From contig NZ_CP030771.1 in the NCBI RefSeq assembly GCF_006088715.1, positions 6,880,001 to 6,944,000 of the forward strand: a DNA stretch of 64,000 nucleotides. The letters run 5' to 3'. The position numbers and the translations under genes are program-made. Position 1 is the first letter of the stretch, and the number at the start of each line of letters is the position of its first letter. The notes under the pieces are model-generated. The model saw only the letters and a program-made list of their open reading frames with translations. It was not told the DNA's origin and made no database searches. This DNA comes from Streptomyces sp. YIM 121038. Its GTDB lineage: Bacteria > Actinomycetota > Actinomycetes > Streptomycetales > Streptomycetaceae. This document shows, piece after piece, positions 36,104 through 41,874 of this stretch.

Positions 36104-38646
36104 TGCTGCGCTACGCACTACAGACGATCCGCGACCGGAAGGGCGGGTTCCTGGGTGCCTTCGTCGCGTTGATGTGCGCCGCCGCGCTCATCACGGCCTG
36201 CGGCACGCTCCTGGAGACGGGCCTGCGCGGCACCATCCGCCCCGAGCGCTACGCCGCCGCCCCCGTGCTCGTCTCCGCCGATCAGAACGTGCACCAGACC
36301 ACCGTCAAGCACAAGAAGGGCAAGACGAAGGTCAAGCACAAGGCGAAGCCGATCGCCGAACGGGCCTGGCTGCCGCGCGAGGTCACCGAGCGGCTCGAGG
36401 GCGTGCCGGGCGTCGGCACGGTCGTACCCGAACTGACCTTCCTGGCGCAGCCGTTGACGCCCGCGGCCAGTGACCCGGACCGTCCCGCGTACGGGCATGC
36501 CTGGTCGTCGGCCTCCCTCGCGCCCTTCCGGATCGTCGACGGACGCGCCCCGCGCGCCGCGGCGGACCTGGTCGTCGACCGCGGCCTCGCCGAGCGCGCC
36601 CGGCTCAAGCCCGGTGACCGGCTCACCGTCCAGTCGACGCGGGCTCCGCGTACGTACCGTGTCTCGGGCATCGCCGCCCCGGACGGCGGCGGGGCTGCCC
36701 TCGCGCACCAGACCGCACTGTTCTTCTCCGACCGCGAGGCCGAGCGGCTCGCCGACCACCCCGGCCGGGTCACCGCCCTCGGTGTCCTGCCGGCCGACGG
36801 CACGTCCGCGCAGGCGCTCAAGGGGGCGGTCAAGGAGGCCCTCGACGGTACGACCGCGCAGGTCAGCAGTGGTGACGGCCGTGGCTCCGTCGAGTTCCTC
36901 GACGCGGCGGGCGCACGGGTGAAGCTCGTCAGCATGGGCGGCGCGATGGGCGGGACGTCCCTGCTCGTCGCCGTGCTCGTGGTCGTCGGCACCTTCGCCC
37001 TGTCCATCCAGCAGCGTTACCGCGAACTGGCTCTGCTGCGGGCCATCGCCGCCAGCCCGAAGCAGCTCCGCAAGCTCCTCGGCCGTGAGGCGCTCCTCGT
37101 CGGGGCGGCCGCCGGCGTCCTCGGCTCGCTGGCGGGCATCCCGCTCGGAGGGCTGCTGTACGGGAAGTTCATCGACGAGGGAGTGGTTCCGGCGACGCTC
37201 GACCGGGTCGTCAGCTTCTTCCCGCCGCTCGTGGCCGTCGCCGCGACGCTGTTCGGCGCCTGGGCGGCCGCGCGCGTCTCCGCCCGACGCATCGCCCGCA
37301 TCCGCCCCGGGGAGGCCCTGGCCGAGGCGAGTGTGGAGCGTACGCGGCTCTCCTGGGTGCGCATCGCCGCCGGTCTGCTCCTCCTCGCGGGCGGTGTCGT
37401 CCTCGTGCTCGTCCTCAGCGTGCTGCGGACCGAGCCCGCGTCGACTCCCGTCACGTTCCTGGCCGTTGTGGTGCTCGCTTCGGCCGTCGCTCTGCTCGGC
37501 CCGCTCGTCGTCCGGGCGTCGGCCGCCGTGCTCGGCCGGGTGCTGCGGCTCACCGGCCCGGTCGGGCGGCTCGCGCACGCCAACCTCCGGGGGAACGCCG
37601 CCCGCATGGCCGCCGCCGTCACCCCGCTGGTGCTGCTCATCGGCATGACGTGCACGGTCCTCTTCACGCAGCCCACCCTCACGGCCGCCGCCCGTGCCGA
37701 GGCGCGCGACGGTGTCCGGGCGGACTGGTCGCTCGCCGCGCAGGGCCCCGGCGTACCGGCGGCGGCCGCGCGGCGGCTGCGGGCGGCCGAAGGCGTCGAG
37801 GCCGTCACCGAGGTCGTCCGCACCACGGTGCGCGTCGGGCTCGACAAGTACCCGGCGCAGGGCGTGACTCCGGCGGGCCTCACCCGCACCTGGGACCCGG
37901 ACGTCACCGCGGGCTCGCTGGCGTCCTTCGGCGCGGGTGACGTCGCCGTCAGCGAACTGGCCGCCGACCGACTCGGCCTGAAGCCGGGCAGCAGCCTTAA
38001 GCTCACCCTCGGCGACGGCACACCGGCCACCCTGAAGGTCGGCGCCGTCTACGCGCGCGGGCTCGGCTTCGGCGATCTGACCCTGGCGCACGACCTGGTC
38101 GCCCGCCACGTCGACAACCCGCTCGCCGCCACGGCCCTCGTCAGGAGTGACCGTACGAAGAATCAACTCGCGGCGACCCTGCGGGAGTTCCCGAACGTGC
38201 GGGTGGATTCCCCCGACGCCGTCGACCGTCTCCAGGCCGAGCGCGGCCAGTCGAGCGCCGACGTGAACCTCCTCGCCATGGGGCTCGTGCTGGCCTTCAC
38301 CGCGATCGCCGTCGTCAACACGCTCGCGATGTCGGTCTCGGAGCGGGTCCGGGAGTTCGCGCTGCTGCGCCTCGCGGGCGCCACGGGCCGCCAGGTCCGG
38401 GGGATGCTGCGTACCGAGGCGCTGTCGGTCCTGCTCATCGCGACCGCCCTGGGCAGCGGGATCGCCCTCGCCGTCCTGACCGCGTTCAGCGTCGGCATGA
38501 CCGGTTCCGCCGCCCCCGTGGTCCTGCCGCTGCTGTACGTCGCCGTGGTCGCCGTGGCGGGGCTGCTCGCCCTGATGGCGACGGCGCTGCCCGGCCGCGC
38601 CGCTCTGAAGCCGCTGCCGGTCACGGTCGCGTCGGCCAAGGAGTAA
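36100..38646 (+). CDS. FtsX-type ABC transporter permease
   Basis: An 848-residue membrane protein with the MacB/FtsX plan: one N-terminal helix (about 15-37), a large extracytoplasmic domain (about 38-280), three helices (about 285-410), two more helices, a second extracytoplasmic domain (about 530-700) and three C-terminal helices (about 720-840). The cytoplasmic repeats RYRELALLRAIAASPKQLRKLL and RVREFALLRLAGATGRQVRGML are the coupling segments for an ATPase. A Lys-rich stretch (KHKKGKTKVKHKAK, about 67-80) sits in the first outer domain. No ATPase gene is adjacent, which is unusual. Its ATG overlaps the regulator stop by 4 nt. Substrate unknown; lipid, peptide or drug export is typical. 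Confidence 0.93.
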   Translation: MMLRYALQTIRDRKGGFLGAFVALMCAAALITACGTLLETGLRGTIRPERYAAAPVLVSADQNVHQTTVKHKKGKTKVKHKAKPIAERAWLPREVTERLEGVPGVGTVVPELTFLAQPLTPAASDPDRPAYGHAWSSASLAPFRIVDGRAPRAAADLVVDRGLAERARLKPGDRLTVQSTRAPRTYRVSGIAAPDGGGAALAHQTALFFSDREAERLADHPGRVTALGVLPADGTSAQALKGAVKEALDGTTAQVSSGDGRGSVEFLDAAGARVKLVSMGGAMGGTSLLVAVLVVVGTFALSIQQRYRELALLRAIAASPKQLRKLLGREALLVGAAAGVLGSLAGIPLGGLLYGKFIDEGVVPATLDRVVSFFPPLVAVAATLFGAWAAARVSARRIARIRPGEALAEASVERTRLSWVRIAAGLLLLAGGVVLVLVLSVLRTEPASTPVTFLAVVVLASAVALLGPLVVRASAAVLGRVLRLTGPVGRLAHANLRGNAARMAAAVTPLVLLIGMTCTVLFTQPTLTAAARAEARDGVRADWSLAAQGPGVPAAAARRLRAAEGVEAVTEVVRTTVRVGLDKYPAQGVTPAGLTRTWDPDVTAGSLASFGAGDVAVSELAADRLGLKPGSSLKLTLGDGTPATLKVGAVYARGLGFGDLTLAHDLVARHVDNPLAATALVRSDRTKNQLAATLREFPNVRVDSPDAVDRLQAERGQSSADVNLLAMGLVLAFTAIAVVNTLAMSVSERVREFALLRLAGATGRQVRGMLRTEALSVLLIATALGSGIALAVLTAFSVGMTGSAAPVVLPLLYVAVVAVAGLLALMATALPGRAALKPLPVTVASAKE

Positions 38647-38718
38647 GGGGCGGTAAGCAAGGGCGGGCGCCCCTTACTCACGCTCCTACGGGAGCGCGGT
38701 ACGGGGCGCCCACGCGTG

Positions 38719-38776
38719 CCCGGGAACCCGTACGCGGCCCGGGAACGCGTGGGCGGCCCCGGGAACGCGTACGCGG
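38719..38776. repeat. three tandem 19-20-bp units
   Basis: 38719-38737, 38738-38756 and 38757-38776 are imperfect copies of CCCGGGAACGCGTACGCGG, in the gap between two convergent genes. They may fold as part of a terminator. Confidence 0.75.
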
Positions 38777-38790
38777 AGGGAAGAGGGCAG

Positions 38791-39243
38791 TCATTCGGTG
38801 ACGGGGAACCCGGCCGCCTTCCAGGCCTGGAAGCCACCGACGAGGTCGGTCGCGTGCCGCAGCCCGAGCTGGCGCAGGGAGTGGGCCGCGAGGCTCGACG
38901 CGTAGCCCTCGTTGCAGACGATGACGATCTCCAGGTCGTGGCTGACGGCCTGGGGGGCACGGTGGCTGCCCTGGGGGTCGAGGCGCCACTCCAGTTCGTT
39001 GCGTTCGACGACCAGCGCCCCCGGGATCAGGCCGTCGCGCTCGCGCAGTGCCGCGTACCGGATGTCGACAAGGAGGCCACCGGACCGGTCGATCTCGTGC
39101 GCCTGGCGGGGCGTGACCCGGTCGAGGTCGCGCCGTACGCGCTCCAGGAACTCTTCTATGCCCACGGGTGCGAGCGGCTCGTCGGCGGTCGCCGAGGCCG
39201 CCGGTACACCCGGGATTCCGTTCAACTCAAGGCCCGCACTCAC
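38791..39243 (-). CDS. rhodanese-like sulfurtransferase
   Basis: A 150-residue single rhodanese domain (about 35-150). The active-site loop is C110-NEGYAS, with the persulfide-carrying cysteine present. LLVDIRYAALRERDGLIPGAL and LVGGFQAWKAAGFPV are family signatures. It would move sulfane sulfur from a donor such as a persulfide to an acceptor. Its ATG overlaps the stop of the cysteine dioxygenase gene by 4 nt, so the two are translationally coupled; together they probably handle cysteine-derived sulfur. Confidence 0.92.
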   Translation of the reverse strand: MSAGLELNGIPGVPAASATADEPLAPVGIEEFLERVRRDLDRVTPRQAHEIDRSGGLLVDIRYAALRERDGLIPGALVVERNELEWRLDPQGSHRAPQAVSHDLEIVIVCNEGYASSLAAHSLRQLGLRHATDLVGGFQAWKAAGFPVTE

Positions 39244-39791
39244 TGCCAGTCCTCCGGACGCTCGACGTGCTCAAGGCGTAGCACGTCACCGGTGCGGCTG
39301 TAGCGGCGGATCCGTGGAAGTGGCGGATAGTACGCGTGCACGGAGACGGCGTGCTCCGTAGGGGACTCGTTGAGCACCTCGTGCACGTGGTTGCGGCCGA
39401 ACGCCCGTCCCTGTCCGGCGGGCAGTTGCCGCTCGCGGTCGATGCCTTCGGTGAGTTCCAGGGTCTTCCAGCCGTCGGTGGGCAGCCGGGCGGCGAGGGA
39501 GTTCTCCTTGAGGGCGCCCGACGCGGTGGTGAAGGCGCCGACCGACTCGGCGTGGTCGTGCCAGCCGGTACCGGTGCCGGGCGGCCACCCGATGAGCCAG
39601 GCCTCGCTGCCGCCGGGCCCGTCCAGGCGCACCCAGGTGCGGCCCTCGGGGTCGAGGGGGAGCGAGGCGACGAGATCGGTGTCCGCGGCGGCGCGGCGCA
39701 CGAAGTGGAGGAGGTCGGCCGAGGTGGGCGGGGCCACCCGGGAACCGGCGGGGGAGGGCAAGGGGGCAGGGCTGGAGACAGACGCTGACAT
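39240..39791 (-). CDS. cysteine dioxygenase family protein
   Basis: A 183-residue cupin enzyme that would oxidise L-cysteine to cysteine sulfinate with mononuclear iron. The iron ligands are H78 and H80 in GWHDHAES and H135 (H137 nearby) in NHVHEVLN. The GxAW and PPGTGTGWHDH segments match bacterial cysteine dioxygenases. ATG 39791 (MSASVSS) is chosen because the upstream extension to 39893 reads through the leader peptide region in another frame. A leader peptide rich in Cys lies 71 nt upstream on the same transcript, pointing to regulation by cysteine supply. Forms an operon with the rhodanese. Confidence 0.9.
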   Translation of the reverse strand: MSASVSSPAPLPSPAGSRVAPPTSADLLHFVRRAAADTDLVASLPLDPEGRTWVRLDGPGGSEAWLIGWPPGTGTGWHDHAESVGAFTTASGALKENSLAARLPTDGWKTLELTEGIDRERQLPAGQGRAFGRNHVHEVLNESPTEHAVSVHAYYPPLPRIRRYSRTGDVLRLEHVERPEDWQ

Positions 39792-39861
39792 GGGACCGTC
39801 CTGGGAGTTCGCGGAACGGCGCGCCGACGACGGGCGCGCGAGAAGGGTGGTGATGGCGAAT

Positions 39862-39948
39862 TCAGCAGGACGGCTGACACACACAGCCCGCATAGCGGAC
39901 GAGGTCCATGTGGACCCTCCGCCACAAGCGGACAGCGGTGTCGGTCAT
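39862..39948 (-). CDS. Cys-rich putative leader peptide
   Basis: A 28-codon ORF ending MDLVRYAGCVCQPSC, with three cysteines in the last seven residues. This matches the actinobacterial class of short putative leader peptides that precede sulfur-metabolism genes. A near-consensus promoter (TTGACC-N17-TCTACT, 39984-39956 on the minus strand) ends 7 nt before the first ATG (39948), so translation may be leaderless. A nested in-frame ATG at 39909 has GGAGGG 5-6 nt upstream and could give the 15-residue form. Ribosome stalling at the Cys codons when Cys-tRNA is scarce would alter expression of the downstream dioxygenase. That mechanism is inference by analogy with cysteine-responsive attenuation in mycobacteria. 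Confidence 0.8.
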   Translation of the reverse strand: MTDTAVRLWRRVHMDLVRYAGCVCQPSC

Positions 39949-39955
39949 GGTCCGG

Positions 39956-39984
39956 AGTAGACCATGACCGTGGGAAGTGGTCAA
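39956..39984 (-). promoter_or_regulatory. promoter of leader-cysteine dioxygenase-rhodanese operon
   Basis: Minus strand TTGACC (39984-39979), 17-bp spacer, TCTACT (39961-39956). Confidence 0.7.
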
Positions 39985-40089
39985 CTCGCTCTCAGCATGC
40001 GGTCGGACGGTCGTTTCTGGTTCAACAGCAGCTGTCTACGGGGCCTCGGACAGCCGTTTGACCCGGCCGGGAGGCCTTGGCTCGGCGGC

Positions 40090-41874
40090 CTACGGGGAGG
40101 GCTTCTTCGGCTCGTTCGATGGCCCGGTGGCGGGTTTCCCCCCGGCTGCTCGGCCACCCTTCGCATCGGAACCGGGCGTCTCGTGGGCTGTCCGGTCGGC
40201 TGCACGGGCGTCGTCGGGCTCGCTGCCCGGCTTCCCGGGGGCGGCCCCGGCGTCCTTCGGGCCGCCGTCCTCCTTCGGCGCGCCCTTCGCCCGCCCCTTC
40301 TCCGGCGTTTCCCGCACCGCCTTGCCCAGGGCCGCCTCGGCGGCCGCGTAGAGCTCCGCGGGGCGTACGCCGTTCAGCGCGGTGACCAGACGGCCGTCCG
40401 GGCGTACGAGCAGGACCGTGTGCGCCGCGGCGCCCGGGTAGCTCTCCGCGACGAGGAGCTCGGCGGGGGCCGGCAGCGCGGTCACCGCGGCGGCGAGACG
40501 GGGCATGATCCCGGCCTTCATCCAGTGCCGCCGGTCCCACACGACGGTTCCGGGCGCCACGAGCACCACGAGGAACTGGCTGAGGCCGAACCGGTCCCGC
40601 AGCCGTACGACGGAACCGTCGGGAGCCGTCACGGCGACGTCGATGACCGGGGCGCCCGACTCCGTGGCCACGAGCACCGTGGAGTCCGAGCTTCCGGGGG
40701 ACAGGGGCGAGTCGGCGTACGCCCCCGGCGCGCCCAGCTGGCCGCGCCCCACATGGCCGTCCGTGAGCAGTGCGTCCTGACCGCGTGCGGCCCCGGGAAC
40801 GTACGAACGCAGCCCACCGCCGCCGCGGAGCACGGGCAGCGACTGGTCGGCGGCGCGCAGGCGCGCGGCCACGGCGGCGCGCCGCTCGGTCTGGTAGCTG
40901 TCGAGGAGCGCGCCGCTCGCGCCGTGGTGCCAGGCGAGCGCCAGCTTCCAGGCGAGGTTGTCGGCATCCCGGAGGCCTTCGTCCAGGCCCTGGGTGCCGA
41001 CGGCGCCCAGGAGATGGGCGGCGTCCCCGGCCAGGAAGCAGCGCCCGGACCGCCAGCGGCGGGCGAGCCGGTGGTGGACCGTGTGGACGCCGGTGTCGAG
41101 CAGGTCGTACGGCGGGGTGGCGCCGCACCAGCCCGAGAGGGTCTCCCGGACGCGGGAGACGAGGGCGTCGGGCGTCACCAGGTCGCCGCGCGGCGGCAGC
41201 AGCCAGTCGACCCGCCAGACGCCGCCCGGCAGTGGACGCGCCGTCACCTCGGGGCCCCCGCCGGGCCACGGCGGGCTCCGGTGCAGCAACGCTTCGCCGG
41301 GCCAGGGAAGTTCCGTCCGCAGGGCGGCGACGGCGTGCCGCTCGACCGCGGTGCGCCCCGGGAAGCGGATGTCGAGCAGTTTGCGGACCGTCGACCGGGG
41401 GCCGTCGCAGCCGACGAGATAGCTGCCGCGCCACCAGGTGTCCTTGGGCCCGCGGGTGTGGGCCGTGAGTCCCGAGGCGTCCTGCTCCAGGGTGTCCAGC
41501 TTGCTCTCCACCGCGACCTTCACGAGCCGCTCGTCGACGATGGCGTCCCGCAGCGCACCGGTCAGCACGTGCTGCGGCACGTGCAACGGCGAGGGCATCT
41601 CGTCACTGAACGTGAGCTGCCGCATCACCTGCTTGCGCCGCATCGACCGCCAGCCGCCCCAGCGCGCTCCCGTGTCCGGGCCCCCGAAGGACACCCCGCA
41701 GAGGCGCTCGACGAGTGCCGCCGTGTCCTCCCGCAGGACGACGGTCCGCGCGGGGCGCTGCTCGTCCTTGCCGGGCCCCTCGTCCAGGACCACGGTGGGA
41801 ACCGAGTGGCGGGCGAGAGCCAGGGCGAGCGTGAGCCCCACGGGGCCCGCGCCGACGACGATCACCGGGTCCAC
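40090..41874 (-). CDS. FAD-dependent aromatic-type monooxygenase
   Basis: A 594-residue flavoprotein of the PheA/TetX (PHBH-like) class. The FAD-binding GxGxxG is IVVGAGPVGLTLALALA near the N-terminus, the DG motif is VGCDGPRSTVRKL, and the GD motif is FLAGDAAHLLGAVGTQGLDEGLRDADNLAWKLA. A thioredoxin-like C-terminal domain covers about 390-520, as in larger family members. The last 70 residues are Lys/Pro/Gly/Ala-rich and disordered. Substrate unknown; hydroxylation of an aromatic or polyketide compound is typical. GTG 41874 has AGGAGG 9 nt upstream; the longer ATG start at 42021 would overlap the glu operon terminator and is rejected. Confidence 0.88.
   Translation of the reverse strand: MDPVIVVGAGPVGLTLALALARHSVPTVVLDEGPGKDEQRPARTVVLREDTAALVERLCGVSFGGPDTGARWGGWRSMRRKQVMRQLTFSDEMPSPLHVPQHVLTGALRDAIVDERLVKVAVESKLDTLEQDASGLTAHTRGPKDTWWRGSYLVGCDGPRSTVRKLLDIRFPGRTAVERHAVAALRTELPWPGEALLHRSPPWPGGGPEVTARPLPGGVWRVDWLLPPRGDLVTPDALVSRVRETLSGWCGATPPYDLLDTGVHTVHHRLARRWRSGRCFLAGDAAHLLGAVGTQGLDEGLRDADNLAWKLALAWHHGASGALLDSYQTERRAAVAARLRAADQSLPVLRGGGGLRSYVPGAARGQDALLTDGHVGRGQLGAPGAYADSPLSPGSSDSTVLVATESGAPVIDVAVTAPDGSVVRLRDRFGLSQFLVVLVAPGTVVWDRRHWMKAGIMPRLAAAVTALPAPAELLVAESYPGAAAHTVLLVRPDGRLVTALNGVRPAELYAAAEAALGKAVRETPEKGRAKGAPKEDGGPKDAGAAPGKPGSEPDDARAADRTAHETPGSDAKGGRAAGGKPATGPSNEPKKPSP

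Follow-up and report, generated by a model that had tools for sequence, protein, structure and literature searches.

Why would a gene for a cysteine-degrading enzyme be headed by a leader with clustered Cys codons, and at which cysteine supply would such a leader allow the enzyme to be made? The locus that raises this question lies on the minus strand of a 64,000-nucleotide (nt) stretch of DNA from Streptomyces sp. YIM 121038 (contig NZ_CP030771.1 of assembly GCF_006088715.1, positions 6,880,001 to 6,944,000), here referred to as the window. Read from position 39984 down to 39791, it consists of a -35 box, 17 nt, a -10 box, 7 nt, a leader open reading frame (ORF) of 28 codons with Cys codons near its stop (C22, C24 and C28), 70 nt, and the start of a cysteine dioxygenase (CDO) gene, whose stop codon overlaps the GTG start (39243) of a rhodanese-domain gene in the letters GTGA. 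The original prediction, which was made from this DNA alone, had named the promoter, the ORF with its Cys cluster and the CDO-rhodanese overlap, and all of these parts were located. The gap that it noted between leader and CDO measures 70 nt up to the CDO ATG (39791) and not 71 nt. In addition, it had proposed that CDO would be expressed when Cys-tRNA is plentiful, the reverse of the logic of sulfur assimilation genes.

Conservation of the leader and its promoter

The leader peptide scored 37.1 bits against NCBIfam family NF042934 (cis_reg_atten, 'putative leader peptide'), which has a cut-off of 27, and only 16.7 bits against the Ms5788A family NF042933, which has a cut-off of 45. When the closest loci were considered, i.e. 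the best 80 of 458 confirmed CDO matches in the genome collection, the leader was found by pattern in 79 of them. In the 80th locus (L078) the upstream half of the leader is replaced and MDLARYAGCVCRPSC remains. Here, the promoter and the upstream leader half have been swapped (at about 2600-2835) for sequence with a CCCGGCCTGAAGGCCGGG inverted repeat, which we take to resemble the end of an insertion sequence, and an ATG still opens a 15-codon ORF.

A draw of 60 genomes, spread evenly over the order, gave 46 CDO matches in 44 genomes. All 38 orthologues with CDO identities of 69-100%, the window's own copy included, carried the leader. Two CDO genes of another family (62-63% identical) bear a diverged leader (GCLCCA), one truncated CDO gene had no leader, and five matches with identities of at most 47% had no leader of the window's kind, although two of these five bear a polycysteine ORF. 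The truncated gene is that of the Streptomyces locus L191 (G042:C1:3706900-3708700), where the match was confined to the C-terminal part of this CDO (query 115-183). The order draw and the set of closest loci share some species; together they comprise 117 sequences, only 112 of which are distinct. A further draw of 150 genomes from the family gave matches in 91 genomes. Other genera accounted for 60 of the matches; 40 of these were fetched, and the leader was present in 35 of the 40 CDO loci (33 by the first pattern and 2 by a wider one), in some cases up to 440 nt away from CDO. A search for the leader element elsewhere with an RNA model (R1) under stricter filters gave hits in 11 of 148 genomes from the class; nine of these belong to the window's genus, and the other two, which showed no leader by eye, were taken as chance matches. 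Judged by its sequence, the leader is real and conserved, and it belongs to a known leader family. This bears out the view that a Cys-codon leader of the actinobacterial kind precedes the CDO-rhodanese pair, and the leader-CDO link, which was to be checked across Streptomyces, proved to be conserved in the genomes examined.

The promoter is preserved as well. In all 80 aligned sequences (the window and 79 relatives) the arrangement TTGAnn-N17/18-T[GC]TA[CA]T-N6/7-RTG was found, with TGTACT (56), TCTACT (23) or TGTAAT (1) as -10 box, a distance from this box to the start codon of 7 nt in 78 and 6 nt in 2 sequences, and GTG (64) or ATG (16) as start codon. Since promoter and spacing are kept throughout, the mRNA is probably leaderless, with transcription starting at or beside the leader start codon. 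The description of this promoter as near-consensus was, however, generous: both boxes are present, but a simple sigma-70 scan of positions 38500-40500 flagged no promoter because the -10 box reads TCTACT.

The conservation extends to synonymous positions. Across the 80 sequences the codons CGG, GTC, GGC and UGU were invariant, and the rare codons AGG, CAT and TAT prevailed at their sites. The pairwise synonymous difference per codon was 0.09 in the leader (14 degenerate codons) compared to 0.30 in CDO, where a value as low as that of the leader did not occur in any of 147 windows of 16 codons. With its synonymous sites nearly frozen, the alignment indicates that selection acts on something beyond the leader peptide. 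The constraint might come from a 13-pair hairpin inside the leader or from a pairing between the leader end and the CDO Shine-Dalgarno. Of 1456 pair cells of the hairpin, 99 percent were standard in the 112 sequences; as the hairpin is almost invariant, covariation neither supports nor refutes it. It should be noted that codon freezing is only partly specific to CDO, as the sir and cysA leaders (13 and 11 sequences, by eye) also vary little. An internal start (GGAGG-N6-ATG at M14) was considered as a hidden ribosome-binding site, but it is not general, the ATG being CTG or another codon in several diverged Streptomyces and in most leaders of other genera.

Predicted masking of the CDO Shine-Dalgarno by the leader end

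The leader end contains CCGUCCUG, which is able to pair with CAGGACGG in the Shine-Dalgarno region of CDO. This pairing was standard in 856 of 888 cells (96 percent) of 111 sequences. Between the two arms lie a short helix, UUCGC/GCGAA, and a variable hairpin; by eye, some diverged sequences have UGAUC-CGC with a matching GCGAUCA in place of this helix. The energy required to open the six-base core of the CDO Shine-Dalgarno was calculated with ViennaRNA as a mean over the 112 sequences. With no ribosome on the leader, the opening cost amounted to 10.5 kcal/mol; it was 8.1 when C22 occupied the ribosomal A site, 5.5 for the C24 UGU and 4.6 for the stop codon. At C24, it dropped by at least 2 kcal/mol in 96 and by at least 4 kcal/mol in 73 of the 112 sequences. 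When the 3' edge of the ribosome was placed at +12, +15 or +18, the cost was 10.6, 8.2 and 5.8 kcal/mol at C22, and 6.6, 5.3 and 5.3 kcal/mol at C24. Native leaders masked the site at a mean cost of 10.8, as compared to 7.5 for synonymous recodings (48 sequences), which suggests native masking above chance on average, though not always when sequences are taken one by one. In one leader of another genus (L221), both the leader end and the Shine-Dalgarno differ in their letters but still pair, and the predicted opening cost decreased from 9.8 to 4.9 with a guessed start codon. In loci of one other genus (L210, L214, L234-L239 and L243), the leaders end in GCG CGC TGA followed by G+C-rich bases, and by eye a hairpin around the stop codon is possible there instead of Shine-Dalgarno masking.

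In silico, the leader thus masks the downstream Shine-Dalgarno unless it is covered by a ribosome, as a translational attenuator would, although the recoding control was only partly clear. We therefore lean, with modest confidence, towards the reading that the leader is a ribosome-opened translational attenuator of CDO; the conservation was observed, whereas the regulation is what we infer. Transcription would start at or beside the leader start codon, as its conservation supports, giving a leaderless mRNA. As long as the leader end is free of ribosomes, CCGUCCUG would pair with CAGGACGG, as visible in the sequence and the predicted fold, and CDO would be translated poorly. A ribosome pausing with the C24 UGU in its A site would cover CCGUCCUG and free the Shine-Dalgarno, so that CDO and the coupled rhodanese could be made. 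Lastly, and this is the weakest step, a shortage of Cys-tRNA(Cys) would lengthen the pause and switch CDO ON at low cysteine. Under such control CDO would join the sulfur-acquisition set, for example through sulfite release from a thiol, rather than serve as an overflow for surplus cysteine.

A fixed UGU codon in the leader

The three Cys codons are not equally conserved. C24 was UGU in all 117 CDO leaders of the genus and in all 35 CDO leaders of other genera. C22 encoded Cys in 115 of the 117 sequences, but several other genera have Ala or Ser at this position while retaining the UGU; because it is absent there, and because the same doublet is present in further leaders of this class (GCLC, TCLC), C22 was rejected as a hallmark of CDO leaders. 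C28 was TGC or TGT in 103 of the 117 sequences and its TG belongs to the anti-Shine-Dalgarno; since it varies, it was dropped as a candidate sensor. Of the three-Cys cluster noted originally, C24 thus stands as fixed and C22 as nearly so within the genus, while C28 is less conserved.

The fixed UGU is shared with leaders of other genes. A pattern caught 57 distinct leaders, including 7 CDO leaders, in 58 loci of 26 Streptomyces genomes; all 57 had TGT as the final Cys codon of the motif, and the same was true for all 26 class-wide leaders caught (28 loci, two of which were missed by the pattern and three of which are from Streptomyces). Other Cys codons within the motif of the class-wide leaders were TGC in 32 and TGT in 7 cases, and the background in long ORFs of the loci and the window was 204 TGT among 921 Cys codons, as obtained with a rough frame filter. 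It should be noted that these counts are not independent, the leaders being mutually related. The codons flanking the UGU differ between leader classes, and a shared RNA pairing is therefore not an obvious cause of the fixed codon. Slower reading of UGU by tRNA(Cys) would be our guess. A literature search found no report of a fixed UGU; the nearest case, in the accessible text of PMC8632094, is a proteobacterial cysS upstream ORF in which UGC dominates.

A second CDO gene with an unrelated polycysteine leader

The genome contains two further PF05995 matches besides the window CDO. Upstream of one of them (L020), an ORF was found, MLANLALSVTRNSGSAGAAPARCRCTCACACSSC, that has six Cys codons, all of them TGT. 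Of 61 genomes drawn from the genus, 58 had this second CDO (59 matches). Within 520 nt upstream, a polycysteine ORF with 4 to 7 Cys codons was present in all of the best 30 of the 59 loci (L020 and L283-L311), and 131 of the 163 Cys codons were TGT. A loose pattern also detected a TTGAC-type box at a fitting distance in these 30 loci. For comparison, when 318 stretches of the window, each of 420 nt, were examined, one held an ORF with at least three Cys among its last 14 codons, and none held one with four. Three of the second-CDO leader peptides had no match in NCBIfam. The Shine-Dalgarno of the second CDO was not masked, with an average cost of 5.5 kcal/mol at every ribosome position in the 30 loci.

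The initial view that paralogous CDO genes lack a leader had to be rejected, as the first pattern was blind to polycysteine ORFs, which were later seen at L020, L192 and L193. L193 is another Streptomyces paralogue, and L192, a CDO of another family with 47% identity, has a short ORF with LCCCLCC (TGT in 4 of 5 Cys codons) at 348 nt upstream. No clear polycysteine ORF was seen at L194, L195, L196 and the third gene of the window's genome, L021. Within one genus, then, both of two diverged CDO genes have a Cys leader in front of them, and the two leaders are unrelated in sequence. As such an unrelated polycysteine leader precedes the second gene in all 30 loci read, cysteine is likely to be the signal.

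Gene company of the leader family

The window leader shares the peptide motif RR-x-H-x-D-L-x-R-x5-C and a score above the curated cut-off with the other leaders of NF042934. In the window's genome six matches exceeded the cut-off, and three more were inspected below it. Downstream of these leaders we found a cysteine synthase (behind a small ORF resembling a sulfur carrier), a nitrite/sulfite reductase, a sulfatase, a two-rhodanese protein, an ABC permease nearest to SsuC, a flavin reductase, a protein of the dicarboxylate-symporter family and a luciferase-like monooxygenase nearest to alkanesulfonate monooxygenase; these functions are by family only, as the NCBIfam matches were under cut-off except for cysKM. 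CDO, a cysteine degrader by family, is thus the odd one out among mainly sulfur-acquisition genes.

The other leaders also differ in their modelled structure, for which start codons and Shine-Dalgarno sequences were located by script. The sir (13), cysA (11) and cysO (13) leaders had opening costs of 4.1, 4.9 and 5.3 kcal/mol when free, and of 3.7, 3.8 and 5.2 kcal/mol with a ribosome at the UGU. In the remaining groups (1 to 3 sequences each) the gain at the UGU was at most 1.2 kcal/mol, and opening was costly throughout for the sulfatase (11.0, 11.2) and flavin reductase (8.2, 8.3) leaders. A ribosome at the Cys codon therefore does not open the Shine-Dalgarno in the groups modelled. In these models, the built-in anti-Shine-Dalgarno is absent from the other leader groups, and the CDO leader is built differently.

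Direction of control and alternative explanations

In the model a pause opens the Shine-Dalgarno, and low Cys-tRNA is therefore predicted to switch CDO ON, as is assumed for assimilation genes. About half of the modest confidence that we place in the attenuator goes to this direction, which we accordingly put forward as tentative. Several observations weigh against the attenuator or its direction. The making of a cysteine-degrading enzyme during cysteine shortage would be metabolically odd. The leader was absent within about 2 kb upstream of 5 of the 40 CDO loci from other genera. In those genera, moreover, the mean opening cost was nearly flat (7.1 to 6.5 kcal/mol for 34 leaders with guessed starts), and drops of at least 3 kcal/mol, read from the rows, occurred in only 5 of the 34 (L213, L215, L218, L221 and L224), with the drop in L213 already located upstream of the UGU. 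Within the 112 modelled sequences the cost increased at the UGU in 5 cases. Of the recodings 17.6 percent masked as well as the native sequence, and only 11 of the 48 native leaders exceeded all 15 of their recodings. RNAalifold gave a covariation term of -0.09, as the leader helices scarcely vary, and for the sole varying neighbouring pair (columns 51-191) 24 compensated and 24 broken cases were counted among 76. Cys leaders at CDO genes can, furthermore, do without masking, since the second CDO has a leader but no masking. Finally, according to the available parts of two papers on feather degradation, CDO mRNA rises while keratin releases cysteine: it was up 50.2- and 8.3-fold in SCUT-3 on feather medium, and 21.65- and 6.36-fold in Streptomyces shaoguanensis at 96 h, where cysteine, cystine and thiols rose alongside. 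Yet these data cut both ways, as the sulfate-reduction genes of S. shaoguanensis first fell and then rose at 96 h. In the available text, neither paper indicates which of the CDO genes is headed by a leader.

The reversed logic of the original prediction was not supported by the 112 models, in which the site was about most hidden without a ribosome and open with the ribosome at the UGU or the stop codon. It could nevertheless apply if scarce Cys-tRNA held the ribosome at C22, where the site is largely closed, and plentiful Cys-tRNA let it proceed to the UGU and the stop codon, so that CDO would be ON at high cysteine. The required difference between C22 and the UGU (8.1 vs 5.5) is clear with the ribosomal edge at +12 or +15, but it is nearly erased at +18 (5.8 vs 5.3). 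Similarly, the near-constancy of C22 in the genus is offset by its absence from several genera that keep the UGU, and by the occurrence of the same doublet in other leaders of the class. The catabolic family of CDO and the presence of Cys leaders at both CDO genes would fit such control by cysteine supply, as would the feather data from both strains, although in S. shaoguanensis sulfate-reduction genes were also up at 96 h. Moreover, the next stall, at the UGU, opens the site, and the scheme needs long stalls at C22 combined with busy initiation, its direction hinging on initiation and pause times. Altogether, we regard this explanation as unlikely.

Control by Rho or by mRNA decay would have the ribosome at the leader end shield a pyrimidine-rich stretch past the stop codon, with Rho ending the transcript once the ribosome leaves. 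Pyrimidines make up 76 percent and G 18 percent of the 20-nt tract after the stop codon in the 112 sequences, and 17 of 20 pyrimidines were reached in 12 percent of them as compared to 0.2 percent of the window 20-mers; this tract is, however, only moderately richer than the whole intergenic stretch, which is 68 percent pyrimidine. Rho was proposed for the terminator-less mycobacterial cys leaders by Seliverstov et al. 2005 (PMC1262725, accessible text), and the sulfur-acquisition and second-CDO leaders, which have no masking that a ribosome would relieve, must be served by another route that might serve here as well. As this would leave the matched CCGUCCUG and CAGGACGG unexplained, we judge it quite improbable. 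The leader might also be a mere entry point that draws ribosomes to the operon, with no sensing of cysteine. Indeed, any ribosome near the leader end opens the site in the model, and for Actinobacteria the accessible text of PMC4833913 argues that ribosomes reinitiate at leader genes. At 70 nt, the gap lies well away from the peak at 10-11 nt given there, and neither the fixed UGU nor the second, unrelated Cys-rich leader would be explained. On account of this second leader, our already low estimate for an entry point was lowered further, and we consider it highly improbable.

Layout of the locus and its genes

The features of the locus are listed in Table 1. The solved structures nearest to the window CDO are named cysteine dioxygenase, and residues H78, H80, H137 and Y154 are invariant in the window CDO and seven relatives. 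We take the His residues to be metal ligands and the Tyr to be the distal Tyr, roles that could also be read off the structure alignment. By its family, CDO would thus be a cysteine-degrading enzyme. A relative of the rhodanese was detected with tblastn in 75 of the 80 CDO loci. No intrinsic terminator was found between leader and CDO, the sole terminator-like site in 38500-40500 being on the opposite strand (39999-40014), and none of 4227 Rfam models matched within 39700-40050 at E-values up to 5. At its other end the window (positions 1-2892) starts within a 23S rRNA gene, followed by a 5S rRNA and a tRNA gene.

Table 1. Features of the leader-CDO-rhodanese locus in window coordinates.
Feature	Position	Strand	Basis
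-35 box TTGACC	39979..39984	-	Direct reading; TTGAnn in 80/80 aligned sequences
-10 box TCTACT, TG one base upstream of box	39956..39961	-	Direct reading and alignment
Leader ORF, 28 codons, MTDTAVRLWRRVHMDLVRYAGCVCQPSC; mRNA probably leaderless	39862..39948	-	NF042934 and conservation
Predicted 13-pair hairpin in leader, codons W9 to Y19	39893..39924	-	Fold, frozen codons
First Cys codon, C22	39883..39885	-	Cys in 115/117 genus sequences
Key Cys codon, C24 (UGU)	39877..39879	-	TGT in 117/117 and in 35 leaders of other genera
Putative anti-Shine-Dalgarno CCGUCCUG: codons P26, S27 and first two bases of C28	39866..39873	-	Pairs with 39796-39803
Second helix, 5' arm UUCGC	39856..39860	-	Window fold
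G+C-rich hairpin in leader-CDO gap, variable among relatives	39819..39839	-	Window fold
Second helix, 3' arm GCGAA	39808..39812	-	Window fold
CDO Shine-Dalgarno region CAGGACGG, masked by leader end in model	39796..39803	-	Pairing and opening energies
Cysteine dioxygenase (CDO) type I, 183 amino acids	39240..39791	-	PF05995, 160.3 bits (cut-off 23)
Rhodanese-domain protein, start overlapping CDO stop	38791..39243	-	PF00581, 46.7 bits

Relation to known leaders and implications

No published data on the leader-CDO pair were found in a literature search whose scope left out most subscription papers. TnaC, the leader of tryptophanase, senses free tryptophan and acts via Rho; like the window leader, it precedes a gene that degrades the amino acid named by the leader. 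The polycysteine leaderless small ORFs of mycobacteria (Ms5788A, NF042933), which Canestrari et al. are said to have described in 2020, reportedly carry Cys codons near their stop and precede a cysteine-related operon. They thus resemble the window leader in the position of their Cys codons and in what follows them, and probably in their leaderless start, but they control cysteine-making genes, whereas the window leader precedes a gene for a cysteine degrader by family. The cys/cbs leaders of Seliverstov et al. 2005 (PMC1262725) also carry their Cys codons close to the stop and lack an evident terminator, as far as the accessible text goes; they are from Mycobacterium, Propionibacterium and Bifidobacterium, no CDO is among them, and the word dioxygenase is absent from that text. 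According to the available part of PMC8632094, uORFC-8-2, the cysS attenuator of Rhodobacterales, can be likened to the window leader in its conserved Cys codons and, if our reading holds, in its ribosome-mediated attenuation, but it has an intrinsic terminator and tandem Cys codons, with UGC as the dominant codon, as opposed to the fixed UGU of the window leader. In Streptomyces lividans, the metL leader before metNIQ, which is described as methionine-dependent in the accessible text of PMC8079986, reads MSTTSDRTPATEATTTPGARCMCRRMCAF and has three Cys near its end.

We regard as possible, yet doubtful as a whole, a wider picture in which both CDO genes of Streptomyces are under Cys-codon leaders of two unrelated kinds, the sensing codon of which is preferably UGU, the less-used Cys codon of these G+C-rich genomes. 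Leaders of the window's kind would have the final Cys of a conserved nascent-peptide motif fixed as UGU class-wide, and in Streptomyces this Cys would be wired to CDO by a built-in anti-Shine-Dalgarno, which would place CDO in the cysteine-starvation set as a sulfur-salvage enzyme. Leaders of a type familiar from genes for cysteine synthesis would here stand over a catabolic enzyme, in two diverged copies. Should CDO be produced at low cysteine, what it does in these bacteria would have to be reconsidered. A fixed UGU that proves functional would be a rare instance of synonymous codon choice contributing to an amino-acid sensor throughout a bacterial class.

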